Source: a virus
DNA length: 64,000 nucleotides
IMG/VR virus record: IMGVR_UViG_3300047325_000072
Span: 31,559 to 95,558 of that record
Reading direction: 5' to 3' (one strand)
Shown: in pieces, positions 4,688 to 64,000 of the stretch
How the letters are laid out: each line of letters begins with the position of its first letter
Numbering within the stretch: the first letter of the stretch is position 1
Notes under the pieces: model-generated
What the model saw: only the letters and a program-made list of their open reading frames with translations
Databases searched by the model: none
Told to the model about the DNA's origin: nothing
Made by a program: the position numbers and the translations under genes

Positions 4688-4990
4688 TTATGGTTTCTCC
4701 TCCGGCGCCGGCAGGAAACATCCCGGCTTGTCCCCGCATTTCACGGCGTAGTCCTCCAGGTCCTTCACGCGCTTTTCACGCTCGGCGAGGCGGGCGTTCT
4801 TCATCTGCACGTCCTGCAACAGCGCTGACAGCTTTGCCATCAACGTATCGCGCGTGCTCGAATGCGCCTCCCAGGCGGCCCCCACGTCGTCGGCCGGGCT
4901 GCGCTGCGGGGGCTGCTGTGCGTGCGCAGCACTTGCCGCGCCGAACAACGCCAGCCCTGCAAAGATGTATCTCCAACGCGTCTCGTTCAT
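4688..4990 (-). CDS. Secreted coiled-coil protein, spanin candidate
   Basis: 100 residues: a cleavable Sec signal (LFGAASAAHAQ), then a charged helical stretch (residues ~45-80, LLQDVQMKNARLAEREKRVK) likely to form a coiled coil, then a two-Cys end (KCGDKPGCFLP). A periplasmic coiled coil beside a holin candidate suggests a lysis role such as a u-/i-spanin-like factor, but it lacks the membrane anchor of a standard Rz protein. Function is inferred from context only. Confidence 0.45.
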   Translation of the reverse strand: MNETRWRYIFAGLALFGAASAAHAQQPPQRSPADDVGAAWEAHSSTRDTLMAKLSALLQDVQMKNARLAEREKRVKDLEDYAVKCGDKPGCFLPAPEEKP

Positions 4991-5001
4991 CTTCCCCTCT
5001 C

Positions 5002-17656: not shown

Positions 17657-17657
17657 A

Positions 17658-22548: not shown

Positions 22549-23517
22549 CTAGGCCGCCCGACGCAGAGCCGGCGCCACCCGGCCGACAGTCGCGTCAAGC
22601 ACGGTGCCCAAACAAGCCTCTGGCGAAAATTTCTTTCGAAAAGCTGCGAATTGTCGCTCCCAAGCTTCCCGCCAGCGGGCGCGTGTCAGCAACGCCACGC
22701 CAATAAAATCGCTCTCCGAAGAGGTAAACTTTACCACGTCTTCCCAACCTTGGGAAAGATCGTGCGGCTCGGCGACAACGGGTCGCCCTAAGCAAAGCGC
22801 GGTGTTGCACCGTGAGGAGGAGACTAAACCCATTTCGTCAAACTTACGAACCTGTAAAATAACCTTGGCCCGGCGCATCTGAATGTCGCGATCTATTTGC
22901 GACTTGAAGTCCATGACAACCTTTACAGCATTGCGCGTGCCGGTCGCCTTGGCGAGCTTTCGTAGCAACGCCTCGCGCCGGGGCGACATCGAGCCGTAAA
23001 AACCAAACTCGAAATCCGGAACGACTCGCGGATCGGGCCGATAAAGGGAGGGCGCGTACCCAAGCTCCAGGTAGGCGGTCGGCGCGTATTGCGAATACCA
23101 GTCACTAACGCGCTGCCCAGGAACAAGGTGCCAAATAGCGTCCAAATATGGCGCAACCTCGCAGAACTTTTCCTGCCGTCTAACCATCTCGGGGTCTAGC
23201 CCGTGATTGAAACCCGCCTGAGTAGGTTCCTCGGTAGCCAGGCAAATAAACCGCGCTCCCCGCTCATGGGCACGACGTAGAACTTCCACGGACCAATCCG
23301 TAAAACCCTCGACAACAACATTGTAGCCCTTGTCCGCCGCCCAATAGGTAATATCCGTCTCCGGCGCAACGCCGTCTTTCCAAAGGATATCGTTTTTCGG
23401 GTCCCAAACAGCGTCATGCCCTAGCGCACGAAGTTGATGACCAATAATCCCGATTACATCCTCCAGGGAGCGTTTGCCGATAGCGTTGTGGTTAAAGAGA
23501 TGGAATAAAAAATCCAA
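22549..23517 (-). CDS. Glycosyltransferase-like protein (paralogue A)
   Basis: 322 residues. I place the start at TTG 23517 because alignment to its paralogue at 37342-38229 begins there and a GGGGAG site lies about ten bases upstream. Shared features: FNHNAIGKRSLED start, FICLATEEPTQAG, IWHLVPGQRVSDWY, FEFGFYGSMSPRR and SSRCNTALCLGRPVVAEPHD, the last resembling the donor-binding end of GT-B glycosyltransferases. Embedded in the neck gene cluster. The acceptor may be virion protein, host surface or DNA; unknown. Confidence 0.65.
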   Translation of the reverse strand: MDFLFHLFNHNAIGKRSLEDVIGIIGHQLRALGHDAVWDPKNDILWKDGVAPETDITYWAADKGYNVVVEGFTDWSVEVLRRAHERGARFICLATEEPTQAGFNHGLDPEMVRRQEKFCEVAPYLDAIWHLVPGQRVSDWYSQYAPTAYLELGYAPSLYRPDPRVVPDFEFGFYGSMSPRREALLRKLAKATGTRNAVKVVMDFKSQIDRDIQMRRAKVILQVRKFDEMGLVSSSRCNTALCLGRPVVAEPHDLSQGWEDVVKFTSSESDFIGVALLTRARWREAWERQFAAFRKKFSPEACLGTVLDATVGRVAPALRRAA

Positions 23518-23519
23518 GG

Positions 23520-24539
23520 TCAGTTTTCTCCCCACTTAGCAACGTAGGCGGCGCGCAACCGAACGACAACAGCGGCTTGAAGAGCCTCTGCCGCGGTCTT
23601 CTCTATTGAGTTGCCCGCAACACTCTCTGTCCAAAACGTAGTTTCCAACCAGTGACGATTCCACTCGTCGCCGTAATCGTGCATTGCACGGACCATTCTT
23701 TCCTCGTCCGTCTCCTCACGATCCGGGTCGCGCCAAGGGTTTTCCGATGTATTGCTGGTTTCGATACCCGACATCATAAGCTCGGCTGATGATGTGACGA
23801 GCTTTACTTGCTCTAAGGAGCTAAGCGCGCGACGCGCGAGATCCTGGTCTGCGCCTCCCTCGCACCGCACGGGACCGTCGGGCACGTCGGGATAAACGAA
23901 CAAAGTCCGTAGGTGAAAGCCTTGCGACCCGTAAGCGTCCAGGCTCGCCGTTGAGCGTGATAATGTCCATCCCTCGCCGTCCGGCGGCGGCATCGCGCCG
24001 CGCATAAGCCCCAGGTGCCAGCGCGAAAGCTCAACGGGCGAAACGTCGATGATACCGCCCGCAAGGTAGTAATTAGCGACGCGCGCACGCAACTCCGGCT
24101 GTAGCCGATAGCCTAAGTGCAGCACTGCGCGGTAGCCCGCGGCGCAGGCCGCAACAATAGTTGTGCCGACCGTGTTTCCGGCAACCTCGTCGGCGCAAAG
24201 CGGCACAAAACCCGCGTCCATTTCGTAGGCAAGTGCAAGCCCGAAATTGTGGCACTCCTTCATCGCCGTGCCGCCGCCGCGCTCGCCGAAGTTTGCCTCC
24301 ATCCGCGACCCCATGTCGATGATATGTATTTCCGCATAGCGGGCAGCGGCTTGTAAGGCGGGCGCACGGCGTAGCGTCTTAGCGTCGCCGGAAACCGTGT
24401 AGAGCACTAAACGCACCGGGCCTAGGGTAGCCAGGGTCGGCAAATTATTATGCGCCAGCAGCGACGGCAGAAGGCAGGATAGAGCGTGCGCAACATAAGT
24501 CTGCCCCCAGACGGGGAGGGCTAGGACCAAGCCGTTCAC
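23520..24539 (-). CDS. GT-A-like putative glycosyltransferase
   Basis: 339 residues from GTG 24539 (GTGA overlap with the upstream stop). The N-terminus (LVLALPVWGQTYVAHALSCL then VRLVLYTVSGDAKTLRR) resembles a family of glycosyltransferase-like proteins with a nucleotide-sugar-binding fold. An acidic DAGFVPLCADEV segment could play the metal/donor role. The C-terminal 90 residues are acidic and helical. Next to paralogue A, together forming a two-gene island between head completion and collar genes. Confidence 0.5.
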   Translation of the reverse strand: MNGLVLALPVWGQTYVAHALSCLLPSLLAHNNLPTLATLGPVRLVLYTVSGDAKTLRRAPALQAAARYAEIHIIDMGSRMEANFGERGGGTAMKECHNFGLALAYEMDAGFVPLCADEVAGNTVGTTIVAACAAGYRAVLHLGYRLQPELRARVANYYLAGGIIDVSPVELSRWHLGLMRGAMPPPDGEGWTLSRSTASLDAYGSQGFHLRTLFVYPDVPDGPVRCEGGADQDLARRALSSLEQVKLVTSSAELMMSGIETSNTSENPWRDPDREETDEERMVRAMHDYGDEWNRHWLETTFWTESVAGNSIEKTAAEALQAAVVVRLRAAYVAKWGEN

Positions 24540-36150: not shown

Positions 36151-37345
36151 GATAGTAGCTCTTTACTTCCGTGTAAGCCGCGCCATACGCGACATCGAGA
36201 GCCTGCTTTAGAGCGACACGCTCGCGGTTTAATCGCACGGCATAAAGATGTTCGTTTGTGGCAACTGCGTTTTCAGACAGGGAAGCAGGAACCAACGTCT
36301 CAAGTAAATCGAAAGTGCGCAAGTGCAACGCTTCCAATTCCCCGTAGAGCGCATCGGCCTGCGGGTTGGCGGGAAGAACGCGCCGAAGCTCGGTAAAGCG
36401 CTGATATTCACGCTCGATAAGCGCACGCTCAATTGCACCCAAACGAGCGCGCTTAACCGCGAGCACAGCTAAACGGTCCAGGACATCGCCGGGGGAAAGC
36501 GACGCCTGGACCGTTAGCACCGGGCCGGGGGACGCGGTCCGGGTTCCTACGGCGAGCAATGCCGCGATAACCTCTTCATGGTTGTGCTCAGTGAGCTTGA
36601 ACTCATCGGCGTCGTAATCATTGCCCGTGAACTTGGTAACATAGGCGTAAGGGTAAGTATCGAACGCCCAGGGGTGCTGCTTGCCCCCATCCACTGACGG
36701 CGTAACAAGCGACTTACGACACGGGAAAGCAGCCGCTGTCAAAATTGACATTACACCGCATTGCGGGCCGATTACCCAATCACTCGCCGCGGCACACGCG
36801 AATAAGTCGCCCAAAGACCAAGCTGGGTTATTTCGACGCGTGCTATAGCCGGCGCGCGTAAGAGCATAGTTCAAATTATCCCAAAACCAGGGCCAGTGAT
36901 TAGGCCAACTCCGGGCCTCCGGTACCAGCAACACAGTGCCCGGATCGCGCGGCGGCGTCGGTAGATTGCAGGGCGCTGCTAGCGGCACGTAATGCGGCAA
37001 GCCCAGAAGCACGCGATACATATCCGCCTGGCTAGCGTGGTAATGCGCAGTAAGCTGATCGATCCGCGCACCGGAACGAACAAAGCTCGGGTGAACGTAA
37101 AAAGGCCGCTCATCCTTTAGAAGGACGTTCTCGTAAGTGCGCTGAAAGTCCGGGTGGTTTTCAGCAAAAATGACGAGATGATCGTCGATCGTATAAGTGT
37201 GATCGAATAAATCCGCGATCGGCGCGTCGTGAGCCTTGACGACTAACTCGACATCCAAGCGATCATGGTATTGCTTGAAAGACTCCAAAAGCGCACAAGC
37301 AAGGTAAACGTCGCCTGTACCAAACATTGCGACGAGTCGGGTCAC
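36131..37345 (-). CDS. GT-B (heptosyltransferase-like) glycosyltransferase with DUF6165-like tail
   Basis: 404 residues from GTG 37345 (GTGA overlap; ATG 37330 is an alternative). N-terminal GTGDVYLACALLESF is a Rossmann-type start. Residues ~190-225 (LGDLFACAAASDWVIGPQCG) resemble the donor-binding segment of GT9-family heptosyltransferases. The last ~120 residues (SPGDVLDRLAVLAVKRARL and helices) match a small domain often linked to glycan clusters. Acceptor unknown. With a heptose-type kinase and nucleotidyltransferase at 59.6-62.1 kb it may transfer that sugar. Confidence 0.55.
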   Translation of the reverse strand: MTRLVAMFGTGDVYLACALLESFKQYHDRLDVELVVKAHDAPIADLFDHTYTIDDHLVIFAENHPDFQRTYENVLLKDERPFYVHPSFVRSGARIDQLTAHYHASQADMYRVLLGLPHYVPLAAPCNLPTPPRDPGTVLLVPEARSWPNHWPWFWDNLNYALTRAGYSTRRNNPAWSLGDLFACAAASDWVIGPQCGVMSILTAAAFPCRKSLVTPSVDGGKQHPWAFDTYPYAYVTKFTGNDYDADEFKLTEHNHEEVIAALLAVGTRTASPGPVLTVQASLSPGDVLDRLAVLAVKRARLGAIERALIEREYQRFTELRRVLPANPQADALYGELEALHLRTFDLLETLVPASLSENAVATNEHLYAVRLNRERVALKQALDVAYGAAYTEVKSYYRGDHST

Positions 37346-38229
37346 AGAGCGAGCGCAGCGCCCAAGCAGAAATCGGGCGAAAAGCGCTTTCGGAAACGAT
37401 CCAGTTGCGCGCAATAGTGATCTTGCCAGTCGTCTTTGACTTTTCGTACATCGTTATAGAAAGACTCGACCGAATCGGAGAAATCGATCACCTCCTTCCA
37501 CTCTCCTGAATGCACGTGCGGCTCGGCCACGACTGGCCTACCCATATGTAGGGCTGTAGCGCAGCGAGAAGATGAAATAATACCTTGCGAATCGTGCGCT
37601 CGGATCTGCGGTATTACACAACAACGACGCATCTCAGTATCACGCTCAGCGGCGCTTAATTTAATAAATGGAAGTATGTACCAAGTACCGCCAATTTTAT
37701 TGATAATGCTTTGCCGGCGCGGCGTTAACTGGCCATAAAAGCCATAATCGAACTCAGGTACCGGATAGTCTTCGCCGACGAATAAGAGTTCTTGGGCAAA
37801 TCCTAACTCCACATAAGCGGCCGGGGCAAACTTTCCGTACCAATTTGTAATATGAGATCCGGGCGCCAGGTGCCAAATCGTTTCGGCATAGCGTGCCGCG
37901 TCCGGAAAGATCGCCTGACGAGCGTCCATAGCATTGTCTAACCGGCCATTGAACGTGCCGCTTGGGGTCGGTTCCTCGGTGGCAATATAAATGAAACGAG
38001 AACCTAGAAAGAAAGCGCTTCTTATCATTTCAAGCGTAAATGGATCGGCGAAACTCTCATAGAGAACGTTTAAAGTATCCGAGTTTTCATCGGAAATATC
38101 CTCGTATTGCGAGGATTCGGAAGTCTGATGCCCGAGTTCGCGTAACTGAGATGAAAGAATGCGCGTCAAATCCTCAATGCAACGGCGCCCATCCTCACAA
38201 TGATTAAAAGTATTGAAGTGAAAATTCAT
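37342..38229 (-). CDS. Glycosyltransferase-like protein (paralogue B)
   Basis: 295 residues, start ATG 38229. Colinear paralogue of the protein at 22549-23517: shared FNH..GRRCIED start, RFIYIATEEPTPSG, IWHLAPGSHITNWYGKFAP, FDYGFYGQLTPRR and SSRCATALHMGRPVVAEPH. It ends exactly where the GT-B gene starts. The two copies lie 14 kb apart at different points of the virion operon, pointing to duplication of a glycan-modification gene. Confidence 0.65.
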   Translation of the reverse strand: MNFHFNTFNHCEDGRRCIEDLTRILSSQLRELGHQTSESSQYEDISDENSDTLNVLYESFADPFTLEMIRSAFFLGSRFIYIATEEPTPSGTFNGRLDNAMDARQAIFPDAARYAETIWHLAPGSHITNWYGKFAPAAYVELGFAQELLFVGEDYPVPEFDYGFYGQLTPRRQSIINKIGGTWYILPFIKLSAAERDTEMRRCCVIPQIRAHDSQGIISSSRCATALHMGRPVVAEPHVHSGEWKEVIDFSDSVESFYNDVRKVKDDWQDHYCAQLDRFRKRFSPDFCLGAALAL

Positions 38230-38230
38230 T

Positions 38231-38947
38231 TTATCGTATCAACAATCTCAACAAATCCCGCGTGGCAGTGTCAGTCGGATAACGATTGCCCAGACAACGC
38301 GCCTCTAACGGCTCGATCTTATCCCAAACGTAAGCCGCTGGGCGTTCAGAAATCCCCCACCGAAACCACCAAATACCGCGCTCTCGACTACGAGGTTTCA
38401 GGCCCCGATGCGGACGCATCGTATCGGAGAGAAAGACCGTTCCCGCAGGGCCATAAATACGTCGAAGAATGTTATTGGGACCAGCCAATTCTTGAGGTCC
38501 GTCTTCGTCCGTAAGCACATCAGTCAAGAAAACGAACATCGCTAGAAAACGATCGTCGTCTTGGTCGCAATGCAACTCTTGAATATCCGCACGCGTTGCA
38601 GCAGGGCCAGGACGCGTCCAAAAAGCATTCATGGAGTACGCAACTGACCGTTCGACATCGAGATATTCAGCGGCAAATGGTGTATATTCTAGCGCGATCT
38701 CTAGAAGATGTGGCGCGCGAATCGCGTCCCATGTATGGACGCAAAGGCACTCGGACGTTTGAGCATCATTACGGCCTACCGGCCCGCGATGAAGATTACG
38801 CGCTGTCTGTGGCACATGCGCGTCAGCATAAACCGGACGGCTTAAAAGAAAGGTATTAGTCTCGGCGATCTTTTCAGGCGAAAGCTGAGCCACGACCGAG
38901 TAGCCCTGAGTTCGAAGCTCGTCTAAAATCAAACTTTTGTCAAACAA
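38231..38947 (-). CDS. Fe(II)/2-oxoglutarate dioxygenase (PhyH-like)
   Basis: 238 residues. Metal-binding HxD is H126/D128 (ELHCDQDDDRF) and the distal His is H180 (DTMRPHRGLKPRSRERG), with a nearby Arg for 2-oxoglutarate. This is the pattern of phytanoyl-CoA dioxygenase-like enzymes. They hydroxylate small molecules or modified bases. It sits beside glycosyltransferase-like and methyltransferase genes, so the substrate may be a sugar, lipid or nucleobase of a phage-made modification. Confidence 0.75.
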   Translation of the reverse strand: MFDKSLILDELRTQGYSVVAQLSPEKIAETNTFLLSRPVYADAHVPQTARNLHRGPVGRNDAQTSECLCVHTWDAIRAPHLLEIALEYTPFAAEYLDVERSVAYSMNAFWTRPGPAATRADIQELHCDQDDDRFLAMFVFLTDVLTDEDGPQELAGPNNILRRIYGPAGTVFLSDTMRPHRGLKPRSRERGIWWFRWGISERPAAYVWDKIEPLEARCLGNRYPTDTATRDLLRLLIR

Positions 38948-44817: not shown

Positions 44818-44866
44818 TGTATTGGAGTCAAATCCAAGATTCTGATGGAATCCGAAAAATTAGGGC

Positions 44867-53003: not shown

Positions 53004-53022
53004 GCCACCCTTAAAATAGTGC

Positions 53023-53051
53023 TTTACTTTAGGTTGAAACCGCGCTATTCT
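53023..53051 (+). promoter_or_regulatory. Promoter for the sugar/ThDP cluster (TTTACT family)
   Basis: TTTACT 53023-53028, 17 bases, TATTCT 53046-53051; the wider core reads GCTTTACTTTAGG as in copy 1. Positioned 38 bases before the ThDP gene at 53089. Confidence 0.7.
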
Positions 53052-53088
53052 CTCTTTGCCTCCGTAATTCTTAGTCATCGAACAACCA

Positions 53089-53694
53089 ATGAAAACCTCA
53101 ACCCAACTCATCGCCTTCGAGGAAAAAGTCGCCCGCGCGTTTAACGACGGCCAAATACGTGCGCCGATACATCTATCAGGAGGAAACGAGGTACAGCTCA
53201 TCAACTATTTTTCATACCATTTTCGTCCTGGAGACTACGTTTTTTCAACCTGGCGTTCGCACTATCATGCGTTGCTGGCAGGAATTTCTGAGGACGACGT
53301 TTTCAACGAAATCCTAGAGCACCGCTCTATCACGCTGTGCTTCCCTGAGCATCGTTTCTATGCCTCTGGTATCGTCGCCGGCCTCGTGCCTGTCGCTCTG
53401 GGCACGGCCCTTGCTCTGAAGCTGGCTCCTAGGTCTCTAGAGGGGCACAAAGTCCATTGCTTCGTTGGCGACATGGCTGCGCGCACTGGCGCCTTTCACG
53501 AAGCTTCTGAATACGCGCTCGGTCATGAGCTTCCTGTGACTTTCATAATCGAAGATAACGGCAAATCCGTCGCCTCGCCGACCGAGGAGATTTGGGGATC
53601 TAGCGGACCTTGGCGAAATCCGCACGTCGATCTTTATTCTTACAAATTGTCTTGGCCCCACTCGGGCACCGGCCAGCGTGTCAATTTTTGGTGA
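53089..53694 (+). CDS. Thiamine-diphosphate enzyme, PP domain subunit (E1-alpha/transketolase-like)
   Basis: 201 residues, shorter than normal E1-alpha (~300). ThDP motif: G127-D128 in VHCFVGDMAARTGAFHEASE and the paired N157 in IEDNGKS, with SGIVAGLVPVALGTALALKL upstream. STWRSHYHALLAG matches E1-alpha proteins. It needs a PYR-domain partner, present as the gene at 53948. Together they would form a minimal two-subunit carboligase acting on a keto donor. Possible two-carbon transfer to a sugar. Confidence 0.75.
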   Translation: MKTSTQLIAFEEKVARAFNDGQIRAPIHLSGGNEVQLINYFSYHFRPGDYVFSTWRSHYHALLAGISEDDVFNEILEHRSITLCFPEHRFYASGIVAGLVPVALGTALALKLAPRSLEGHKVHCFVGDMAARTGAFHEASEYALGHELPVTFIIEDNGKSVASPTEEIWGSSGPWRNPHVDLYSYKLSWPHSGTGQRVNFW

Positions 53695-53720
53695 TCCTCA
53701 CAATTCAGGAGATGGATTCG

Positions 53721-53951
53721 ATGCCTACGGCGCGCCAGATGAGCGACAGATCGATCGGGCGTTACCGCGCGTCGTTCGCAAGCATTTGCCCGGAATGCGG
53801 GGAAATCGTCGAATCCAAGTGGGTCGCTGGGGGCGGTTGCTTGCCCAGTCCGCGTGAATACCAACTGGTTGCGGACTGGGTTTATCACGCGCCGTGCTGG
53901 GATATAGCGCTCGCGAGACTGGCGCCGTCTATGCACACAGGAGAAAAATGA
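53721..53951 (+). CDS. Small Cys-containing protein between the ThDP subunits
   Basis: 76 residues from ATG 53721 (AGGAG eight bases upstream). Contains SICPECGEIVESKW and HAPCWD, a likely metal-binding CxxC...C set. Its stop overlaps the start of the PYR subunit (ATGA), so it is made with the enzyme and may be a third subunit or chaperone. No family known. Confidence 0.55.
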   Translation: MPTARQMSDRSIGRYRASFASICPECGEIVESKWVAGGGCLPSPREYQLVADWVYHAPCWDIALARLAPSMHTGEK

Positions 53952-54472
53952 CCCCCTACCTTTCGGCCCTCTCCGAAGCGATGGGAATCCTTGCCGCAGA
54001 CCCGCGGACCCTCTTTCTCGGGCAAGGTGTCTGCTATCCTGGCGTCGGCTACTTTCAAACTTTGTCCTCCGTTCCCGAGGACAAACGTCTTGAAGTTCCA
54101 GTTTTTGAAAATACCCAAGTCGGTCTAACGCTGGGCCTTGCCGTCGCCGGGCGCTTGCCGATCAGCCTTTTCCCGCGGATCAATTTTTTGATTGAAGGGA
54201 CCGGGCAACTCGTACAGCACGTTGATAAGTGGCACGCCCTCACCGGCACGCACCCGCATTTGATAATTCGCACCGTCGTGGCTGACGGCGACCCTCCTGG
54301 ACTTGATCCCGGACCCCAGCACCTGGGCGACTACACCGAAGCGCTTATGCGGATGTGCCCAAATATCGAATTTCATTGTCTACATTCCGCAGAACAAGTG
54401 CCTTTGTTTTATAATCACGCATTTCATGTTCGTGTTCCCCACATCCTGGTTGAATATGCGAGGCTGTATTGA
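53948..54472 (+). CDS. Thiamine-diphosphate enzyme, PYR domain subunit (E1-beta-like)
   Basis: 174 residues from ATG 53948 with GGAG site. Catalytic Glu54 in VPVFENTQVGLTLGLAVAG activates the ThDP pyrimidine. PISLFPRINFLIEG and QHVDKWHALTG follow the E1-beta/transketolase PYR pattern. It lacks the C-terminal domain of full E1-beta proteins. Split E1-like pairs in sugar clusters (for example avilamycin AviB1/AviB2) add two-carbon branches to sugars; a comparable role is inferred. Confidence 0.75.
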   Translation: MTPYLSALSEAMGILAADPRTLFLGQGVCYPGVGYFQTLSSVPEDKRLEVPVFENTQVGLTLGLAVAGRLPISLFPRINFLIEGTGQLVQHVDKWHALTGTHPHLIIRTVVADGDPPGLDPGPQHLGDYTEALMRMCPNIEFHCLHSAEQVPLFYNHAFHVRVPHILVEYARLY

Positions 54473-54654
54473 AAGACGACGATCTCATCATCCGCCTAGC
54501 CCGTATCATCGAGCCTGTTTTCGATCGGGCTTCTAGAAATACGCGCAACAACGCTTTGATCACGGCGCGCGCTGTGCTGGCCGAGGTTGAACGTTCCCGG
54601 TTCCTTGAGGGCCGCGCTATCAGCGAGCTTTATTTGGGGCCTAAAATCGGTTAA
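54469..54654 (+). CDS. Small helical protein
   Basis: 61 residues, TTG start overlapping the PYR-subunit stop (TTGA). Charged helices (DDDLIIRLARIIEPVFDRAS, ALITARAVLAEVERSRFLEG). Last gene before the TnpB element. Function unknown. Confidence 0.45.
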   Translation: MKDDDLIIRLARIIEPVFDRASRNTRNNALITARAVLAEVERSRFLEGRAISELYLGPKIG

Positions 54655-54701
54655 AAAGTCATCCTATGGGATAGGAATTGCAGCACCCCTAAAAATAGTC
54701 C

Positions 54702-54730
54702 TTGTCTTTTATATAAGCCGAGGCTATTTT
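54702..54730 (+). promoter_or_regulatory. Promoter for tnpB
   Basis: TTGTCT 54702-54707, 17 bases, TATTTT 54725-54730, ending seven bases before the tnpB ATG at 54737, so the transcript would be leaderless or initiate very close to the start codon. It lies inside the left-end inverted repeat. Confidence 0.5.
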
Positions 54731-54736
54731 TAAGAA

Positions 54737-55912
54737 ATGCTCGACGCAAGCCGAATTCGCCTATATCCGACTTCCTTGCAAGCTCAAACCTTGGCCGTTC
54801 AATTTGGCTGTGTACGTTGGGTTTGGAACAACGCTCTAGCCGCAACAGGCGATCTTTATCGCGCCACAGGCAAACGCTTGCCCTATCATACGATGTCTAT
54901 TCGTCTTCCGAAATTAAAACAAGAATATGAATGGCTACGCGCTGCTGACAGCCAAGCGTTGCAACAATCCTTGCAGAACCTCGCCAGGGCGTTCGAGAAC
55001 TTCTTTGCCAAGCGGGGTAAATATCCACGCTTCAAGTTCAAGCACGGTCGTCAGTCTATCCAATATCCCCAACGGGTGAAGATCGAAGGCCCGCGCATCT
55101 ACCTGCCGAAAGTCGGCTGGGTGAAGTGCGTCGTGCATCGCACGATTGTCGGCAGGATGAAAACCGTAACGGTCAGTCGCAACACCTGCGGGCAGTTCCA
55201 TGCCTCGATCCTGACCGATAATGATGCACCCCTGCCTAAGGTGAGTACCGAGGGGCCGGCGATCGGCATCGATGTCGGGCTGACCCACATTGCTATTACC
55301 AGCAACGGATCGAAGTTTGAAAACCCCCGTCATCTACGCAAGGCGGAAAGGAATCTCAAGCGCAAACAGCGCAAGCTCTCACGCAAAAGGAAAGGATCGA
55401 ACAGCCGGAACAAAGCCCGACGGCTGGTTGCTCGCGCGCATGAGCGCGTCGTGTGCGCGCGAAAGGATAACCTGCACAAACTGTCTCGCCGGATCGTCAA
55501 CGAAAACCAAGTTGTCGTAGTCGAAGACCTGCATGTGAAAGGGATTAGTCTTGCGAAGGCCGTTGGCGAAGCAGGATGGGGCACGTTTACCAGGTTTCTT
55601 GAATACAAAGCCGCGCGTGCCGGAAAGGCATTCATCAGGTGCGACCGCTGGTATCCGAGTTCCAAGGCATGCTCTGCGTGCGGTTCGATCTGCGATAAGA
55701 TGCCGCTTTCTGTTCGGGTTTGGAACTGCGCCCATTGCGGCGCTAGCCACGATCGGGACATCAACGCGGCGATAAATATCCGCGACGAAGGTTTGCGGAT
55801 ATTGGCGGCCGGAGCGGTCGCTACTGCTAGTGGAGGCAGTGCAAGTCACGGCAAGAGGCGCAATCCTCGTGTTCGTGCGATTGCCGTTGAAACTAGAAGC
55901 TCCACCCCATGA
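54737..55912 (+). CDS. tnpB: TnpB RNA-guided nuclease
   Basis: 391 residues, full length. RuvC residues D179 (AIGIDVGLTHIA), E263 (VVVVEDLHVKG) and D341 (HDRDINAAINI). Zinc ribbon C312/C315 (ACSACG) and C331/C334 (CAHCG). Intact active site, so likely functional. TnpB cuts DNA guided by a right-end-derived RNA at a site flanking a short TAM. No TnpA nearby, so movement would need another transposase. Could also act in competition against other phages. Confidence 0.9.
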   Translation: MLDASRIRLYPTSLQAQTLAVQFGCVRWVWNNALAATGDLYRATGKRLPYHTMSIRLPKLKQEYEWLRAADSQALQQSLQNLARAFENFFAKRGKYPRFKFKHGRQSIQYPQRVKIEGPRIYLPKVGWVKCVVHRTIVGRMKTVTVSRNTCGQFHASILTDNDAPLPKVSTEGPAIGIDVGLTHIAITSNGSKFENPRHLRKAERNLKRKQRKLSRKRKGSNSRNKARRLVARAHERVVCARKDNLHKLSRRIVNENQVVVVEDLHVKGISLAKAVGEAGWGTFTRFLEYKAARAGKAFIRCDRWYPSSKACSACGSICDKMPLSVRVWNCAHCGASHDRDINAAINIRDEGLRILAAGAVATASGGSASHGKRRNPRVRAIAVETRSSTP

Positions 55913-55932
55913 GAAGGGGTAGAGTAGTTCAC
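55880..55932 (+). ncRNA. Candidate omega-RNA 3' scaffold
   Basis: The right-end hairpin (55900-55924) and adjoining GAGTAGTTCAC would form the 3' scaffold of a TnpB guide RNA. The guide should then begin at about 55933 inside the dehydratase gene. It overlaps the tnpB 3' end, as is usual. Inference from element structure only. Confidence 0.35.
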
Positions 55933-57021
55933 CAATATCCTACCGCATTCAAAAATTGGGGAATCGAGGAAATTGAGGCGATCGAGCGCGTCATATCCTC
56001 GGATCGGTTCACGCAAGGCCCCGAGGTTGAGGCTTTTGAGGCCGAATTCGCCGCCTATCACGGCCGTTCTTATGCAATCATGACCAACAGCGGCTCGTCA
56101 GCCAATCTGGTCGCCACGGATGCGATCGTGATTCGAAGGGGCCTACAATGCTCTCTTTTTGATGTTTTAGTACCCGCCATAGCTTGGTCAACCACTTATG
56201 GGCCGATCATTCAAAGAGGCTTCTATCCAATTCTTAACGATGTTGATGCAACCTGGAATGCAGATCCTGGCTTGCATCCATCATCACTTGTTGTCGGTTG
56301 CTCCATACTAGGCTGCCCCGCGCGTCTCGATCATCCCTTTTTGGAGGACAACTGCGAGGCGTTAGGCGCCCGCACCGAAACCGGGCAGCTAACCGGCACC
56401 TTCGGAGACCTTTCAACCTTTTCTTTTTTCCATAGCCACCAAATTTCGGCCATTGAGGGCGGTTGTATCCTGACCGACGATCTGGAGCTAGCGCGGCTTT
56501 GCCGAGTGCTTGCCAATCACGGCAATGAGGGTTTCGCTTTCCCTACCAAGGATTTTGACCATAGTTATCGGTTCACTCAGTTTGGTTTCAATGTCCGGGG
56601 CCTGGAGATGCACGCAGCCATCGCCAGGGAGCAGCTTAAAAAGCTAGATCACCACAACGTCGCGCGCCGTTCCAACCTTGCGCATTTTACCGCGGCCACG
56701 GAGGGCCTTCCTATCACTTTGCAAGCCCAGCGGGGCACGCCGGCCCCCTTTGGCCTGGCGTTTACCGTTGACGGCGGCAACGCCGCACGTGCGCGGCTTG
56801 TAGCTGCGCTGCAAGCGACAGGTATCGATGCGAGATTGCCAACCGGGGGCAGCTTTTTGCGTCATCCTTACGGCGCGCCGTGGCGGGATCAAAAGACCCC
56901 GAATGCGGACCGCATTCACGACACGGGCCTTTTCCTGGGCAACGCGCCCTTTCCCATCCCCCACTTGATCGAAAAAGCTGTGGGGGTCATGCGTCATTCG
57001 TTGGAAGTCACATCGCCATGA
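55909..57021 (+). CDS. PLP-dependent sugar 3-dehydratase (DegT/RfbH-ColD-like)
   Basis: 370 residues, DegT/DnrJ/EryC1/StrS fold. NSGSSANLVATDAI, FLEDNCEALGAR and GTFGDLSTFSFF are typical. At the position of the usual PLP lysine is H177 (FFHSHQISAIEGG), as in RfbH/ColD enzymes that remove the sugar C3 hydroxyl instead of transaminating. Predicted deoxysugar step. The first eight residues (MRRGRVVH) come from the TnpB element right end, so the native start was replaced. Confidence 0.75.
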   Translation: MRRGRVVHQYPTAFKNWGIEEIEAIERVISSDRFTQGPEVEAFEAEFAAYHGRSYAIMTNSGSSANLVATDAIVIRRGLQCSLFDVLVPAIAWSTTYGPIIQRGFYPILNDVDATWNADPGLHPSSLVVGCSILGCPARLDHPFLEDNCEALGARTETGQLTGTFGDLSTFSFFHSHQISAIEGGCILTDDLELARLCRVLANHGNEGFAFPTKDFDHSYRFTQFGFNVRGLEMHAAIAREQLKKLDHHNVARRSNLAHFTAATEGLPITLQAQRGTPAPFGLAFTVDGGNAARARLVAALQATGIDARLPTGGSFLRHPYGAPWRDQKTPNADRIHDTGLFLGNAPFPIPHLIEKAVGVMRHSLEVTSP

Positions 57022-57926
57022 GAGTCTTGGTAACTGGAAGCTCCGGTTATATTGGTTCTATTCTCGTCCCTCTATTGTTAGAGAAGGGCCACAAGGTCAT
57101 CGGATTTGATTCCTTGCGCCACGCGCTTCCCGCAATATCCCATAACCCGAGTTTTACTTTTGTGCACGGAGACGTGCGTAATCCCTTTGGTCACATACTC
57201 CCTAAAGCCGATGCTGTGATTCATCTAGCGGCCCTGGTTGGTGCGCCCATTTGTGACAGATTTCCCGACGAAGCAACGGCCGTTAACGATTTAGCGGTGC
57301 GGGAATTGGTTTCCCGGTTGTCACCTTCCCAAATGTTGATCTATCCGAACTCTCAATCGGGTTACGGAAAGACTCCCGGTATACCGATAGACGAGTCTGC
57401 GTCGATGCAACCGCTATCCCTATATGCTTTCTCCAAATGCAACGGCGAGCGCCACGCGCTTGCGCATCCCCGATCTAAGGTGATGCGGCTTGCGACTCTT
57501 TACGGCGTTTCCCCGCGCATGCGTACCGACCTGTTGGTCAATGATTTTGTCTTGCGTGCTTACCGCGATCGAAAGCTAACGCTTTACGAAGGACATCACT
57601 GCCGGGCTATTTGCCACGTTCGCGATGCAGCCTACGCACTCTCTATGTGTTTGACCGAGGAAATACCCTTTCAATCGGTTCATAACGTGGTGAGCGATAA
57701 TGTAAGCAAGCGTTCTCTGGCTGAATGTATTCAGACATTTTACCCTGAATTTATCTTTGATGAAGATGAATTCAAAAAAGACCCGGATCAGCGCGACTAT
57801 GCCGTTTCGGCCGATGCTTTGAAGGGCCGCGGTTGGAAACCTCAGCATAGCCTCACAAACGGGATCCCGGAACTGCTAAAGTTCTACTCGACGGTTCCGA
57901 TAACCTATGTTTCGGGAAACATATGA
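57018..57926 (+). CDS. NAD(P)-dependent sugar epimerase/dehydratase (extended SDR)
   Basis: 302 residues from ATG 57018 (ATGA overlap). Nucleotide-binding VTGSSGYIGSILVPLL, active-site YAFSK with preceding Ser (PNSQSGYG), IHLAALVGAPICDRF and RLATLYGVSPRMR. Extended SDRs act on nucleotide sugars (4,6-dehydration, epimerisation or reduction). In this cluster it may reduce or epimerise the deoxy-keto intermediate. Confidence 0.8.
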   Translation: MRVLVTGSSGYIGSILVPLLLEKGHKVIGFDSLRHALPAISHNPSFTFVHGDVRNPFGHILPKADAVIHLAALVGAPICDRFPDEATAVNDLAVRELVSRLSPSQMLIYPNSQSGYGKTPGIPIDESASMQPLSLYAFSKCNGERHALAHPRSKVMRLATLYGVSPRMRTDLLVNDFVLRAYRDRKLTLYEGHHCRAICHVRDAAYALSMCLTEEIPFQSVHNVVSDNVSKRSLAECIQTFYPEFIFDEDEFKKDPDQRDYAVSADALKGRGWKPQHSLTNGIPELLKFYSTVPITYVSGNI

Positions 57927-59383
57927 GCACGGACGTGGCTTTCATACATCCGGGCGGCGTCCACGGGATCTTTTCCACCGAGTTGGTTGAGTCCTCCCTT
58001 GTCGCACGTGAGCAGCCGCTTTGGTGTCGGATTTGCGCGTCCTACCTTTTGGACCGCGGATACACCTGCGCGATTGTAGATCAGGAGGTTTCGATAGACG
58101 ACGTATCTGTTTTGATAGAGAAGCTAGACCCTAAGATTGTCGTCATCGTCGCTGCGGGGCATCAACCCTCAGCCTCAACTCAATCTATGGTGGCGGCAAC
58201 AAAAATTGCTGATAGCCTTCAGGGTCATACCACCAAACTGGTAATTATGGGAAACCACCCCTCCGCGCTTCCCGAACGAACATTGAGGAGTGTTGCGGTA
58301 GATTATGTTATCGACGGCGAAGGTCCAGCTACCATACTTGGTTTGTTGAAGGGTGACAAGTTAGAGAATATTCCTGGACTTGTCTGGTTTGACGAATTCG
58401 GCGACGTTATTCGCAACCCTGCCGCTTCGCTCCTTGATCTTGATCACGACCTGCACGGTTCGTCGGCCTGGCACCTGCTTCCCCCGCCAAGCCGCTATAT
58501 GGCCCATCAGTGGCAGTGCCTGGACGATCTCTCGCGCCGCACGCCTTATGCCGCAATTCATACATCTTTGGGTTGTTCTTTCAAATGCCATTTTTGTATG
58601 ATAAATGTATTTCAACATACGAACCGTTATCGTATGCGCTCTCCGGCTGCGGTTGTCGAGGAGATGGAAACGCTTTATCGAGATCATGGAGTTAAAACTT
58701 TCAAGATCATCGATGAACTTTTTGTTTTGAACAAACGACATTTTCGTGCTGTCTGCGCCGGCCTTGCTGCCTCTATAGGGCCGGATATCAATGTTTGGGC
58801 TTACAGTCGCACGGACACCGTAACCGAGGAGGATCTCCCGATTCTCCGCGCGGCCGGTATCAAATGGCTCGCTTTGGGTATTGAGTCGTCAGATGCGGGG
58901 GTACAAGCCGCCGCGGCCAAAACCCAGAAAGTAGATATCCGTGCGGTCGTTCGTCAAATCCAGGCTGCTGATATATCTGTCATTGGCAACTATATCTTTG
59001 GCCTTCCGGAGGATACCGGGGAGACGATGCAAGCCACCTTGGACCTTGCGCTGTCTTTGGGTACCGAATGGGCGAACTTTTACGTGGCGCTCCCCTATCC
59101 GGGATCCCCTCTTTTCGATGAGGTTCAAGCTACCCGGCCGCAGGATCTTCCCCCCGCTTGGGAAGCATACAGTCAGCACAATCCCCATACTTATCCGCTT
59201 TCTAATGCCAATCTCTCCGCAGCAGAAATCCTGGCTTTTAGAGATCAGGCTTTTCTCACTTTTTTTACCGATCCGTCTTTCCTGGCCCGTACCGCGGCTA
59301 AATTTGGATGCCCCGCCGTCGATCATGTTCGAGACATGACGCGCTATCGCTTGCGTCGTAATCTGCTGGAGACACCGGAATGA
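57923..59383 (+). CDS. B12-binding-type radical SAM enzyme
   Basis: 486 residues. N-terminal ~150 residues: B12-binding-like Rossmann region (LLDRGYTCAIVDQEVSIDDV, VDYVIDGEGPATILG). Radical SAM cluster CSFKCHFC (CxxxCxxC) at about residue 217, then WLALGIESSDAGVQAAAAK, VIGNYIFGLPEDTGETMQ. Such class B proteins do C-methylation or rearrangements, often in polysaccharide and antibiotic sugar clusters. ATGA overlap upstream. The reaction here is unknown. Confidence 0.75.
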   Translation: MSTDVAFIHPGGVHGIFSTELVESSLVAREQPLWCRICASYLLDRGYTCAIVDQEVSIDDVSVLIEKLDPKIVVIVAAGHQPSASTQSMVAATKIADSLQGHTTKLVIMGNHPSALPERTLRSVAVDYVIDGEGPATILGLLKGDKLENIPGLVWFDEFGDVIRNPAASLLDLDHDLHGSSAWHLLPPPSRYMAHQWQCLDDLSRRTPYAAIHTSLGCSFKCHFCMINVFQHTNRYRMRSPAAVVEEMETLYRDHGVKTFKIIDELFVLNKRHFRAVCAGLAASIGPDINVWAYSRTDTVTEEDLPILRAAGIKWLALGIESSDAGVQAAAAKTQKVDIRAVVRQIQAADISVIGNYIFGLPEDTGETMQATLDLALSLGTEWANFYVALPYPGSPLFDEVQATRPQDLPPAWEAYSQHNPHTYPLSNANLSAAEILAFRDQAFLTFFTDPSFLARTAAKFGCPAVDHVRDMTRYRLRRNLLETPE

Positions 59384-59664
59384 AAAACACGCGCTGTGCA
59401 ACCTGTGGCGCGGAACAATGTTCCGGCGGCTGCACCCCGCGCCGATGCGTTTGCGGAAACGCAATCATACGCAAGGTTTATCCCGGCGGCGGTAGGGAGG
59501 CATGGAGTCTTTTCTTAAATCGTAAGACCTGTGGTCGCCCCGATTGTATCCACGCCTCTCGCGTGCGTATTAAACCAATCCCCGACGTACAGCCTATTTG
59601 GCCCCCGAACTGTTTCGCGCCGTACAACCTGACATTTCGGCGCCTATGCTCCCTTCAACCATAA
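59380..59664 (+). CDS. Cys-rich zinc-ribbon-like protein
   Basis: 94 residues with seven Cys in the first 55 (RCATCGAEQCSGGC, RCVCGNAI, KTCGRPDCIHASRVR), arranged as two ribbon-like knuckles. Small phage Zn proteins of this type often precede nucleotide- or DNA-processing genes. The C-terminus overlaps the nucleotidyltransferase start. Function unknown. Confidence 0.55.
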   Translation: MKNTRCATCGAEQCSGGCTPRRCVCGNAIIRKVYPGGGREAWSLFLNRKTCGRPDCIHASRVRIKPIPDVQPIWPPNCFAPYNLTFRRLCSLQP

Positions 59665-60242
59665 TCCTGGCAGGCGGCAAGGGCGCGCGCGCGCGCGCTT
59701 ACCTGGGCGATACGCCAAAATTCTTGGCTCCGATTGGCCGTAGCACGGTCGCCGGTTATTTGCTTCCATGGTTGCGTTCATTTAATCCGCAATCCGTTTC
59801 CCTGTTGCTTACGGCGGGTTGCGGAGACGAGGCGATCATGTCGCACCTTAGTCATAACTTTGTCGATGCGACCTATGTAGATTGGGGGGCAGACGGCACG
59901 CTTACGAGCTTAAGGCGCACTATGCGGTTTTTGCGCTACTCCGCCGATGGCGTTCTGCTTCTGAACGGTGACACATTGCTCGATGCCGATCTTGTCGCCG
60001 CTTATGCGCAGCACCGTCGTCAAGGCGCGCTTGTCACGGAGGTAATCGACCCGCTCACGGGCGTGTCGTCAGGCTGCCGATTCTTTTCGGAAGCGACTTT
60101 TCGTCTCGCGCTTCGCTCCTCTCAATCCCAAGTGGAGGACGCTATCCCGCTTCTTTGTTCGCCGATGATCTACCCCGCGCGCACTTTTGTCGATATCGGC
60201 ACGCGGGAGGGTTGGGAAGAGGCTCAGAAGTGGACTATGTGA
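59646..60242 (+). CDS. Sugar-1-phosphate nucleotidyltransferase (HddC-like)
   Basis: 198 residues from ATG 59646 (TTG 59598 is an alternative). The pyrophosphorylase signature is LAGGKGARARAYLGDTPKFL, with LLLNGDTLLDADLV and VTEVIDPLTGVSSGC later. Joins a sugar-1-phosphate to an NTP. With the GHMP kinase downstream it mirrors the HddA/HddC pair making GDP-D-glycero-D-manno-heptose. Substrate remains inferred. Confidence 0.75.
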   Translation: MLPSTIILAGGKGARARAYLGDTPKFLAPIGRSTVAGYLLPWLRSFNPQSVSLLLTAGCGDEAIMSHLSHNFVDATYVDWGADGTLTSLRRTMRFLRYSADGVLLLNGDTLLDADLVAAYAQHRRQGALVTEVIDPLTGVSSGCRFFSEATFRLALRSSQSQVEDAIPLLCSPMIYPARTFVDIGTREGWEEAQKWTM

Positions 60243-60928
60243 TCTCGCCTCCCTTCGGGGCTTATTTCCGCCATCCGCGAGCGATATCGATTCACGGCTC
60301 CTACACAGTAAGACCGCGTCCGGGACGCCTTAGACAAGTCTTGCGGACGTTTCGTCCCGCGCCGGGCGGATGGATCAATGCTATCGGGCTGCGCAATAGC
60401 GGGCTGGAATCTGCTCCTAAAAATACTAGCGTGTCGCTTGCTCCGATTGAGCCTCAAGATTGGGAGATTTTTGATCTTTGGTTAGGTAAATTTCGGGATA
60501 TAGAATTTAACCTCGGATGCCCCAATATTGACGGCGATGCACCGCTGCCGCCGGAGTATTTGGTTGCTCGCACCGATGTAACCTGGAAGGTGCCGCCGGG
60601 TGCCAATGATCTAGTCGATTGGCTAGCCGCGCGCGGCGCGCGGTCTTTGCATCTTTCCAACGCATTACCCTCCCCGCGGGGCGGTATATCGGGGGCGCAG
60701 CTTAGGGCCGTCAACCTACCCTTCGTGGCCTCTGTGGCGCGTCGTCTATCAGGCATAGAGATAACGGCAGGCGGCGGGGTTTACGCGCCCGAGCACGCTC
60801 AGGCTTATCGCGATTTAGGCGCGACGCGTGTTTCGCTCGCGACAGCTTTCATGTGGCCGCCGCGGGCGTTCAGAATCCTTACAAAAACCGATTCCAGTCA
60901 CGAGAGAGTTACCGCTTGTCGCGGGTGA
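60239..60928 (+). CDS. Dihydroorotate-dehydrogenase-like flavoprotein
   Basis: 229 residues from GTG 60239 (GTGA overlap). TIM-barrel DHOD landmarks: GGWINAIGLRNSGLE, IEFNLGCPNI, EITAGGGVYAPEHAQAYRDL, GATRVSLATAFMWPP. Shorter than DHODs (~310), missing the N-terminal part, so perhaps a specialised FMN reductase. Might supply or use reduced flavin in sugar or nucleotide modification. Activity uncertain. Confidence 0.6.
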   Translation: MISPPFGAYFRHPRAISIHGSYTVRPRPGRLRQVLRTFRPAPGGWINAIGLRNSGLESAPKNTSVSLAPIEPQDWEIFDLWLGKFRDIEFNLGCPNIDGDAPLPPEYLVARTDVTWKVPPGANDLVDWLAARGARSLHLSNALPSPRGGISGAQLRAVNLPFVASVARRLSGIEITAGGGVYAPEHAQAYRDLGATRVSLATAFMWPPRAFRILTKTDSSHERVTACRG

Positions 60929-60932
60929 CGAA

Positions 60933-61123
60933 TTGCCCAAACATCAACAGGATGTTCTCGATTTCCTTCGTAAGCGCAGCAGAGCTTGCACTGCGAGGAA
61001 CCGGCTCAATCTAGCTCAGCCCTGGCTCGCAGCGTGCTTAATGAATTGATCAAAAAGGGAATGGTCGTGCGACGACGCAGAGCTAAAGATCTATTTGAAT
61101 ATGAGGCGGTAAAGAATGGCTGA
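60933..61123 (+). pseudogene. Winged-helix gene apparently frameshifted
   Basis: TTG 60933 opens LPKHQQDVLDFLRKRSRAC, the first half of a winged-helix. After ~60975 another frame carries SALARSVLNELIKKGMVVRR and AKDLFEYEAV, the matching recognition helix and wing, to TGA 61121-61123. The frames are not connected by any start with a ribosome-binding site. Either a sequence frameshift or a decayed regulator. Confidence 0.4.
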
Positions 61124-61150
61124 GCGATTGGCCAACCGCGTCAACGATCT

Positions 61151-62119
61151 ATGATCATCACGCGCACGCCGCATCGTCTGTCTTTGGTGGGTGGTGGGAC
61201 GGATCATCCCGCGTGGTACAATGAGCACCCCGGCGCGTGTATTGGCTTTGCTGTCAAGCTGTATTGCTACGTGGCGTTGCGCGCATTGCCGCCATACTTT
61301 CCGGGCTATCGGCACAGATTTAGCTGGTCCCGGATCGAGTTGCTTGACGACCATGCGGCTTCAACCCATCCCGCAATGCGGGCAGTGTTTGCAGACAAAT
61401 GCGTAGAGGAAGGGCTAGAGGTCCATCATTTTGCCGATGTGCCGGCCCGCGCCGGCTTGGGATCGTCGTCAGCTTTCGTTGTAGGACTTTTGAACGCACT
61501 TGGCGTTTATCGCTCGGGCACGGCTGACGAACGCGCGTATCTTGCTCGCGAGGCGATCCGCCTTGAGCGCGATGTTATGCGGGAAACGGTCGGCGATCAG
61601 GATCAGTATTTATGCGCGTTGGGAGGCGTTAATCGCCTTGATTTTGCAGTTGGAGAGCCTGCGCGGATCACGCCGCTTGCTATAAGCGCGCACATTCTTG
61701 ATCACTTGACACTTTTCTATACGGGCCTCCAACGCAACGCGAGTGAAATCGAAGCCAGGAAGGTTGCCCGGAAAAAGGATCTGACTTATTTATATAATCT
61801 AGTGGATGAAACCGAGGGCATCCTGGTTTCTGGCGATCCTTGCCGGCTGGGCGAGATTTTCAATTTCGCCTGGGAGGTTAAGCGTAGCCTCGATCCTGCT
61901 GTAACCAACGATCATATCGACAGCATCTATAAGTGCGGCATCGCAGCCGGTGCCACGGGCGGTCGCCTTGTAGGCGCGGGGGGAGGCGGATTTTTTCTCT
62001 TTTGTCGAAGCCCCGACAAAGCGGCTGCTTTAAGCGCTGCTTTGAGCGGGCTTATCGAGGTCCGCCCTGAGATCGATCACGAGGGAACTAAAGTTTTGCC
62101 GGTCAATGGGGAAACGTGA
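61151..62119 (+). CDS. GHMP sugar kinase (HddA-like)
   Basis: 322 residues. GHMP ATP loop P98-A108 (PARAGLGSSSAFVVG), N-terminal RTPHRLSLVGGGTDHPAWY, and C-terminal GATGGRLVGAGGGGFFLF, closely resembling D-glycero-D-manno-heptose-7-phosphate 1-kinases. Phosphorylates C1 of a sugar phosphate for the nucleotidyltransferase. Supports a heptose-type nucleotide-sugar product. Confidence 0.85.
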   Translation: MIITRTPHRLSLVGGGTDHPAWYNEHPGACIGFAVKLYCYVALRALPPYFPGYRHRFSWSRIELLDDHAASTHPAMRAVFADKCVEEGLEVHHFADVPARAGLGSSSAFVVGLLNALGVYRSGTADERAYLAREAIRLERDVMRETVGDQDQYLCALGGVNRLDFAVGEPARITPLAISAHILDHLTLFYTGLQRNASEIEARKVARKKDLTYLYNLVDETEGILVSGDPCRLGEIFNFAWEVKRSLDPAVTNDHIDSIYKCGIAAGATGGRLVGAGGGGFFLFCRSPDKAAALSAALSGLIEVRPEIDHEGTKVLPVNGET

Positions 62120-63334: not shown

Positions 63335-64000
63335 ATGAGACAGAAACGCATCACGGAAACGGTCACGAGCATAAAGGGCTTCGACAAAGATCTTCGCTGT
63401 CGCGGTTTTCAATTTGAACTTGGCAAGACATATGAGCACAGTGGTCCGGTGATAGCCTGCGAAAGCGGATTTCACGCGATAGAGGGAAATCCGCTATATG
63501 TGCTTAACTACTACGCGGCCGGCAGCCGTTATGCGGAAGTCATTCAATCGGGGCAACTGATGCGGCATGAGGCCGACAGCAAGGTCGCGTCCTCGAAGAT
63601 AACCATTGGTGATGAAATCCCTCTGCATGAGTTGATTGGGCGTGCGGTCAAATGGGTATTTGATCGCGCGATACCTGAAGGCTTAGGGTCTCAAGCAACC
63701 GGCGAAAGCGGCGCGGCATCCGCAACCGGCGACAGCGGCGCGGCATCCGCAACCGGCGACAGCGGCGCGGCATCCGCAACCGGCATCAGCGGCGCGGCAT
63801 CCGCAACCGGCGAAAGCGGCGCGGCATCCGCAACCGGCGACAGCGGCGCGGCATCCGCAACCGGCGAAAGCGGCGCGGCATCCGCAACCGGCATCAGAGG
63901 CGCGGCATCCGCCACCGGCTACGGCGGCGCGGCATCCGCAACCGGCATCAGAGGCGCGGCATCCGCAACCGGCGTCAGCGGCGCGGCATCCGCAACCGGC
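63335..64000 (+). CDS. DUF7666-type protein with long nonapeptide repeat (3' end beyond window)
   Basis: At least 222 residues; ATG 63335 after GAGGAG. N-terminal domain ([37 protein letters not shown]) belongs to a domain found in phage and bacterial proteins of unknown function. From residue ~121 it becomes a 9-residue repeat (GAASATG plus two variable positions; E/D/I/Y/V at one, S/R/G at the next). Likely an extended beta-solenoid or flexible coat. Cut by the window end. Confidence 0.75.
63695..64000 (+). repeat. 27-base tandem repeat array
   Basis: About 11 copies of a 27-base unit encoding GAASATGxx, running to the window end. Only two codons vary, so the array is very homogeneous at DNA level and should be prone to copy-number change. 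Confidence 0.9.

Follow-up and report, generated by a model that had tools for sequence, protein, structure and literature searches.

A virus of bacteria, known from the 95,558-base record IMGVR_UViG_3300047325_000072, carries an operon of predicted sugar enzymes. The stretch of DNA analysed here, called the window, spans 64,000 nucleotides (bases 31559-95558 of the record), and the operon occupies window positions 53022-62119 on the plus strand. Judged from its sequence, and with moderate confidence, the operon makes a rare nucleoside diphosphate (NDP) sugar from the heptose pathway. The predicted product is a guanosine diphosphate (GDP) 3-deoxy-heptose with a two-carbon branch at C4, modified further by a radical S-adenosylmethionine (SAM) enzyme. 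The nucleotide, which we infer, is probably GDP.

An earlier reading of the sequence, the first-pass annotation, had proposed an activated deoxy-, possibly branched heptose-type sugar. All seven proteins it named are present where it put them, each with a family match. Its proposal is strengthened by genes of the GmhA/GmhB type in some bacterial operons, by a short-chain dehydrogenase/reductase (SDR) that is nearest to a GDP-heptose C4-dehydrogenase, and by a His-type dehydratase and a thiamine diphosphate (ThDP) enzyme pair that are conserved across phages and bacteria. The reactions themselves are predictions.

Enzymes of the operon and the predicted pathway

Two adjacent genes point to a deoxy-keto-heptose. 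The first (55909-57021) encodes a sugar 3-dehydratase of the pyridoxamine/pyridoxal phosphate (PMP/PLP) type that resembles ColD (DegT 1.2e-50; ColD 4e-50). It has His177 at the position of the aminotransferase Lys, as had been noticed before. Read from alignment, the His is shared by 46/46 viral and 57/60 bacterial relatives, and the three bacterial exceptions, which have Lys, are second aminotransferases of low identity. Of ColD and RfbH, the closer is ColD; the protein misses the NCBIfam RfbH equivalog cut-off (159 vs 423 bits).

The second gene (57018-57926) encodes an extended SDR of 302 amino acids (aa), resembling Cj1427 and of the NDP-heptose C4-dehydrogenase type. Its start is the ATG at 57018, not the GTG at 56880 that had been assigned to it. 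The NAD motif TGxxGxxG and the catalytic residues S114, Y136 and K140 are present, and there is an Epimerase match (1e-26). The best match in the PDB is 6vo6/6vo8 at 2e-68, with the runner-up at 7e-16. These structures we take to be Cj1427, a GDP-heptose C4-dehydrogenase, and the phage SDR is predicted to be of the same type. Cj1427 forms a 4-keto heptose, on which a C3-dehydratase then yields GDP-D-glycero-3-deoxy-4-keto-heptose in vitro (PMC10680097). GDP-3-deoxy-4-keto-heptose would be an ideal acceptor for a carboligase of the E1 type.

The operon opens with genes for such an enzyme, split in two. The E1-alpha-like ThDP-binding subunit E1a (53089-53694) is a short viral form of 201 aa, with matches to E1_dh (1.6e-12) and phrog_34187 (5e-42) and the ThDP motif GDM...EDN. 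The E1-beta-like subunit E1b (53948-54472) has 174 aa and consists of the pyrimidine domain only. Its Transket_pyr match (3.9e-5) falls below the family cut-off, but it aligns to the second half of phrog_34187 (1.5e-15). The features of E1-type carboligases, a ThDP motif in alpha and a catalytic Glu in beta (here Glu54), are both present. E1b has 34 near-invariant residues, all retained in the window copy, and the near-invariant residues of E1a are likewise all retained. The pair is probably a ketone carboligase of the E1 type, similar to alphaKADH2. Carboligation of keto-sugars is known or has been proposed for E1-type enzymes and for split transketolases, and YerE extends a 3-deoxy-4-keto sugar by two carbons (PMC12247030).

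In the proposed pathway, the Cj1427-like SDR would oxidise C4 to a ketone. The ColD-like enzyme would take off the 3-hydroxyl, giving GDP-3-deoxy-4-keto-heptose. The split ThDP enzyme would then use pyruvate to attach two carbons at the C4 ketone, leaving a tertiary alcohol and an acetyl branch. Next the radical SAM enzyme would act on the skeleton, either closing a ring through a C-C bond, adding a C-methyl group or removing a further oxygen. Finally, a GT-B glycosyltransferase would transfer the sugar to a virion protein or a host-surface glycan. Taken separately, a heptose backbone and the 3-deoxygenation are both rated highly probable, oxidation at C4 almost as much so, and the two-carbon branch at C4 likely.

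The radical SAM enzyme (57923-59383, 486 aa) has a B12-binding domain. Its Radical_SAM (8e-14) and B12-binding (3e-12) matches lie above the Pfam cut-off, and the CxxxCxxC motif is present. The structure model reaches a predicted local distance difference test (pLDDT) score of 87.5. The nearest PDB folds are TsrM, which is a B12 methylase, and AprD4, which is a diol dehydratase; AprD4 is also the best solved relative by sequence profile. The best NCBIfam match is HpnJ (5e-37), under the equivalog cut-off (128 vs 577.6 bits). Ring closure, methylation and deoxygenation are all three candidates for the reaction.

It is possible, if on balance doubtful, that the same pathway ends with a radical SAM enzyme that only methylates or deoxygenates. 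The product would then be an open C4-branched 3-deoxy-heptose, the heptose homologue of yersiniose. The TsrM and AprD4 folds favour this, as does a B12-binding domain above the Pfam cut-off. However, the best family, HpnJ, makes a cyclitol from a sugar, turning a glucosaminyl group into a cyclitol ether (PMC12583986). None of these relatives is close enough to decide.

The supply of the activated heptose would fall to two further genes. The sugar-phosphate nucleotidyltransferase gene, whose start has been corrected to 59646, runs to 60242 and occupies the same operon position as in bacterial operons. Its annotation as HddC-like stands in part: the family match is significant (NTP_transf_3 1e-9), but the HddC match is weak (2e-8). 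The kinase gene (61151-62119) does encode a GHMP kinase resembling HddA, the heptose-7-phosphate 1-kinase type (8e-34). Its best PDB matches, 4n3o/4usm/3k85, are sugar/heptose kinases.

Relatives in phages and bacteria

The gene combination had been taken as peculiar to this phage. A search for the same gene set in other phages, as had been suggested, instead found it in dozens of phages and also in bacteria. Counted after dereplication, about 40 viral contigs have the core of E1a, E1b, dehydratase, SDR and radical SAM enzyme. Viral scans returned 49 loci with E1a as the query, where the relatives of E1a are 44-53% identical, and 4 loci with the radical SAM enzyme. The 49 E1a loci and 2 loci from the radical SAM scan form 30 clusters at 90% nucleotide identity, and the core also occurs in further phages. 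Within these clusters, E1a is present in 30, E1b in 30, the PLP enzyme in 28, the SDR in 27, the radical SAM enzyme in 24 and the GHMP kinase in 10. Such counts are lower bounds, because viral records may be fragments. The commonest neighbour pairs are E1a-E1b (27) and radical SAM-E1a (20). The nucleotidyltransferase found no relatives in the viral scan.

A profile scan of a genome collection found relatives in Alphaproteobacteria, marine Gammaproteobacteria, Planctomycetota, Nitrospirota and others, among the best 80 loci. The same gene set occurs in Azospirillum, Magnetospirillum, Shewanella and Brocadia. Gene counts in bacteria cover the 54 radical SAM loci of at least 15 kb. The SDR is found in 47 of these, the GHMP kinase in 45, the PLP enzyme in 43, the nucleotidyltransferase in 29, a WcaG-like gene in 24, HAD in 8 and SIS in 6; E1a is full-length in 33/54 and E1b in 29/54. 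Several bacterial loci (L065, L070) share the gene order of the window, which is E1a, E1b, PLP enzyme, SDR, radical SAM enzyme, nucleotidyltransferase and GHMP kinase. A locus of Hyphomicrobiales UR115 (L138) adds SIS and HAD genes of the GmhA/GmhB type. In a Bradyrhizobium-like locus (L149) the operon is equivalent except that a split transketolase (4776-7755) stands where the E1 pair would be. One ThDP carboligase has thus been swapped for another, which supports the branching role.

These counts also bear on the idea that the operon holds two separate functions, a plain GDP-heptose route (kinase and nucleotidyltransferase) next to a ThDP/radical SAM function that has nothing to do with it. 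Kinase and nucleotidyltransferase are indeed missing near the module in many phages. In bacteria, however, the radical SAM loci come with the GHMP kinase and the PLP enzyme in the numbers just given, and nucleotidyltransferase-GHMP and radical SAM-nucleotidyltransferase are frequent neighbours. Two functions are judged improbable.

In the radical SAM tree, the window falls within a clade of Alphaproteobacteria, together with phages L008, L031, L005 and L006 and the phage-like contig L062. Another group of viruses is placed elsewhere. The tree thus suggests at least two transfers; the exact place of the window in it is unsure, since its branch is long. Contig L062 has been binned as Cyclobacteriaceae, and is probably a phage contig, because it has short viral-type E1a and E1b and phage-like tail genes.

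A number of observations weigh against the predicted branched heptose. The Transketolase_C domain, which is the C-terminal domain of the bacterial E1b, is missing from the viral one, as a family search of the 174-aa protein found. The match of the nucleotidyltransferase to HddC reaches 34 bits vs an equivalog cut-off of 300, and HddA, although the best match of the kinase, is likewise under its cut-off (117.5 vs 600 bits). The kinase stands near the module in only 10/30 viral clusters. Among those open reading frames (ORFs) of the virus record that were scanned, none was recognised as GmhA or GmhB. The structures 6vo6/6vo8, which we take to be Cj1427, are listed only as 'putative sugar-nucleotide epimerase/dehydratase'. 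Finally, the window SDR deviates at 11 sites with a conservation of 95% or more in its family, and the window radical SAM enzyme sits on a long branch.

Because of these 11 deviations and the long branch, the window copy of the module may have drifted. An actually decaying copy would in addition fit the invasion by a TnpB gene and the displacement of the module from the structural block, both described below. It is nevertheless hard to credit: the reading frames are open, the 4-nucleotide overlaps are kept, and so are the catalytic motifs and all near-invariant E1a and E1b residues.

Related sugars and the likely target

One of the closest published systems is the modification of GDP-heptose in Campylobacter jejuni, with Cj1427 and the HS:5 C3-dehydratase (PMC10680097). 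It shares with the operon the SDR, the PLP-type 3-dehydratase, the HddA-type kinase and, weakly, the HddC-type transferase. The published route has neither a ThDP carboligase nor a radical SAM enzyme, and the ketone is reduced there.

The branching step resembles that of yersiniose, where 3-dehydration gives a 4-keto acceptor to which a ThDP enzyme adds two carbons. YerE, however, is of the decarboxylase type and acts on CDP-3,6-dideoxy-4-keto-glucose, whereas the phage ThDP enzyme is E1-type, its predicted sugar is heptose-like and there is an extra radical SAM step. Membership of the yersiniose pathway was rejected, as a decarboxylase-type YerE is lacking and the window ThDP enzyme is E1-type. 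The alphaKADH2 carboligases of aldgamycin and kibdelomycin (KbDH; PMC12247030) share the E1 alpha/beta pair, pyruvate and branched keto-sugars. They sit in antibiotic clusters, and the viral form differs from them by being without the E1-beta C-terminal domain.

The cyanophages S-SM2 and P-TIM68 (L057, L058) have a fused E1a-E1b (phrog_34187) in clusters whose annotated genes include a heptose isomerase, a kinase, a nucleotidyltransferase and an epimerase. Neither the radical SAM family of the window nor its His-type dehydratase family was detected in them. Their fused gene adjoins a zinc alcohol dehydrogenase.

How bacteria make carbocyclic and carbon-branched higher sugars, such as caryose and bradyrhizose, is not established. 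Caryose is a 4,8-cyclo-3,9-dideoxy-nonose (PMC9671505). Its skeleton is a heptose plus two carbons, 3-deoxy, with a terminal methyl group and a bond between C4 and C8; this matches the pathway steps above if these are followed by closure between C7 and C8. Its biosynthesis was not found in the literature searched. We put forward, tentatively and as an unlikely though specific possibility, that the operon is the missing pathway of a caryose-type carbocyclic sugar. The radical SAM enzyme would form a bond between C7 and the acetyl carbon (C8), so that a 4,8-cyclo-3,9-dideoxy-nonose results, and phages would have acquired the pathway from bacteria on at least two occasions to glycosylate their particles.

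For bradyrhizose the enzymes differ. Genome G380, presumably that of Bradyrhizobium ORS278, holds an operon (L157:12391-20846 and on) with a Cj1427-like SDR (31%), a GmhA-like SIS gene, a second SDR, a split transketolase, a nucleotidyltransferase and alcohol dehydrogenase-, HAD-, kinase- and methyltransferase-like genes. It lies 35 kb from the best O-antigen-ligase match, and at 43-46 kb in three sister genomes. ORS278 produces bradyrhizose, and a mutant in an 11-gene cluster about 44 kb from its rfaL lacks that sugar (PMC4743980). The G380 operon is probably the bradyrhizose operon. The combination of heptose and ThDP chemistry therefore probably also underlies bradyrhizose, with a split transketolase and not an E1 enzyme. 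That the phage pathway is the same as that of bradyrhizose was considered and rejected: no match to this radical SAM family (E<=1e-100) turned up in the presumed ORS278 genome, nor was a ColD-like dehydratase detected among the genes of the operon there.

A five-gene core that is shared by dozens of phages and by cultivated bacteria opens the question of the higher sugars to direct tests. Analogues of the first two tailoring reactions have been published, a precise substrate can be predicted for the ThDP enzyme, and the radical SAM reaction would be new enzymology. If the reading is right, phages carry a route for rare-sugar tailoring alongside the genes for head and tail, with consequences for the masking of receptors and the glycosylation of virions. 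Literature searches for phage and heptose together with radical SAM or transketolase found nothing.

A candidate user of the sugar is the glycosyltransferase encoded at 22549-23535 on the minus strand, beside head-tail genes. The top PDB fold matches of its model (pLDDT 87) include GT-B glycosyltransferases. A group of phages, the largest about 129 kb, was found through its family, and E1a is present in 11/12 of the records tested. The core genes are clustered in those records whose region was read and, where in view, the module lies between or beside capsid and tail genes, with glycosyltransferases. The window module, unlike that of these relatives, is displaced from the head-tail block. Because the module accompanies head-tail genes in relatives and the GT-B enzyme is shared, the target is probably a virion or host-surface glycan and not DNA.

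That the sugar is instead placed on phage DNA, with a glycosyltransferase acting on modified thymine, is very improbable: PF18723 (7e-44), two PF18748 proteins and a thymidylate-synthase-like protein in the record speak for it, but the bacterial operons have the look of gene sets for surface sugars, the module keeps company with head-tail genes in relatives, and DNA is unlikely as a common target because the PF18723 family occurs in only 1/15 module phage records. This rare co-occurrence of the 5-hydroxymethyldeoxyuridine (5-hmdU) kinase with the module is why DNA glycosylation was set aside. The record itself has three proteins of 5-hmdU DNA kinase families (record positions 16761-18708), with thymidylate-synthase-like and HD-domain proteins nearby. 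By sequence, this cluster likely serves thymine hypermodification.

Two other genes can be noted. A paralogue of the glycosyltransferase (40% identical, 5e-76) is found at 37342-38229 on the minus strand. Next to it, at 38231-38947 on the same strand, is a protein whose relatives lie next to the module in phages related to this one (phmmer to L004, 1.7e-28). It has no Pfam match, and a resemblance to 2-oxoglutarate-Fe(II) dioxygenases was seen by eye only.

Insertion, operon layout and genome setting

The earlier gene list had overlooked a gene within the operon. At 54737-55912, on the plus strand, lies an intact-looking TnpB, an RNA-guided endonuclease of the IS200/IS605 type (IS200_TnpB 5e-113), with the RuvC DED residues present. 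It splits the operon between E1b and the dehydratase, and its stop codon overlaps the dehydratase start. A scan of 16 related phage records with the module found no TnpB, and on comparison it is a foreign insertion. It comes without TnpA.

A hairpin, CTCCACCCC-ATGAGA-AGGGGTAGAG followed by TAGTTCAC, lies at about 55898-55924 and in our judgement resembles an IS605-type right end. If it is the right end of the element it would supply the start codon of the dehydratase, and the first dehydratase codons may therefore be derived from the element. No other copy of the right-end pattern was found, so the boundaries of the element are set by the hairpin alone. In the closest relative, L008 (12045-12815), a gene read as a GIY-YIG endonuclease occupies the same junction between E1b and the dehydratase.

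The mostly overlapping gene starts reported before are borne out: 6/10 gene junctions in the operon overlap by 4 nucleotides and one by 19. All reading frames are open, and the catalytic motifs of the operon enzymes are intact on inspection. Two small ORFs are also part of it. One, of 76 aa and with a CxxC motif, lies between the ThDP subunit genes (53721-53951) and overlaps the E1b start by 4 nucleotides; it has no relative in other module loci. The other is Cys-rich, has 94 aa (59380-59664) and shares an ATGA overlap with the radical SAM gene. The flavoprotein resembling dihydroorotate dehydrogenase (60239-60928; DHO_dh 5e-10) had been counted as a pathway member. No relative of it turned up in the viral scan or in the module loci, and it probably stands outside the conserved pathway.

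A phage-type promoter had also been proposed upstream of the operon. The motif there, CTTTACTTT...TATTCT (53022-53060, plus strand), is promoter-like. CTTTACTTT has 5 copies in the window vs 0.32 expected, and 0/100 shuffles reach 5. The copies are at 44866, 53022, 62140 and 63277 on the plus strand and at 43092 on the minus strand, mostly upstream of plus-strand genes, and the pair at 53022 and 62140 stands one at each end of the operon. Generic sigma-70 promoter matches in the window, by comparison, show no excess over chance.

The operon is flanked by a VapE-like/primase gene and a Dda-like helicase gene, and the minus strand carries the terminase, portal, capsid and tail sheath genes. The same long repeat gene, with 'SGAASATG' repeats, is found at both record ends (record positions 2-487 and window positions 63335-64000). 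Because both ends fall within one repeat gene, the virus genome is probably near-complete; this suggests a circular or permuted genome that was assembled up to the repeat. The record also has a gene for myo-inositol-1-phosphate synthase at record positions 15718-16776 (PF01658 5e-33).

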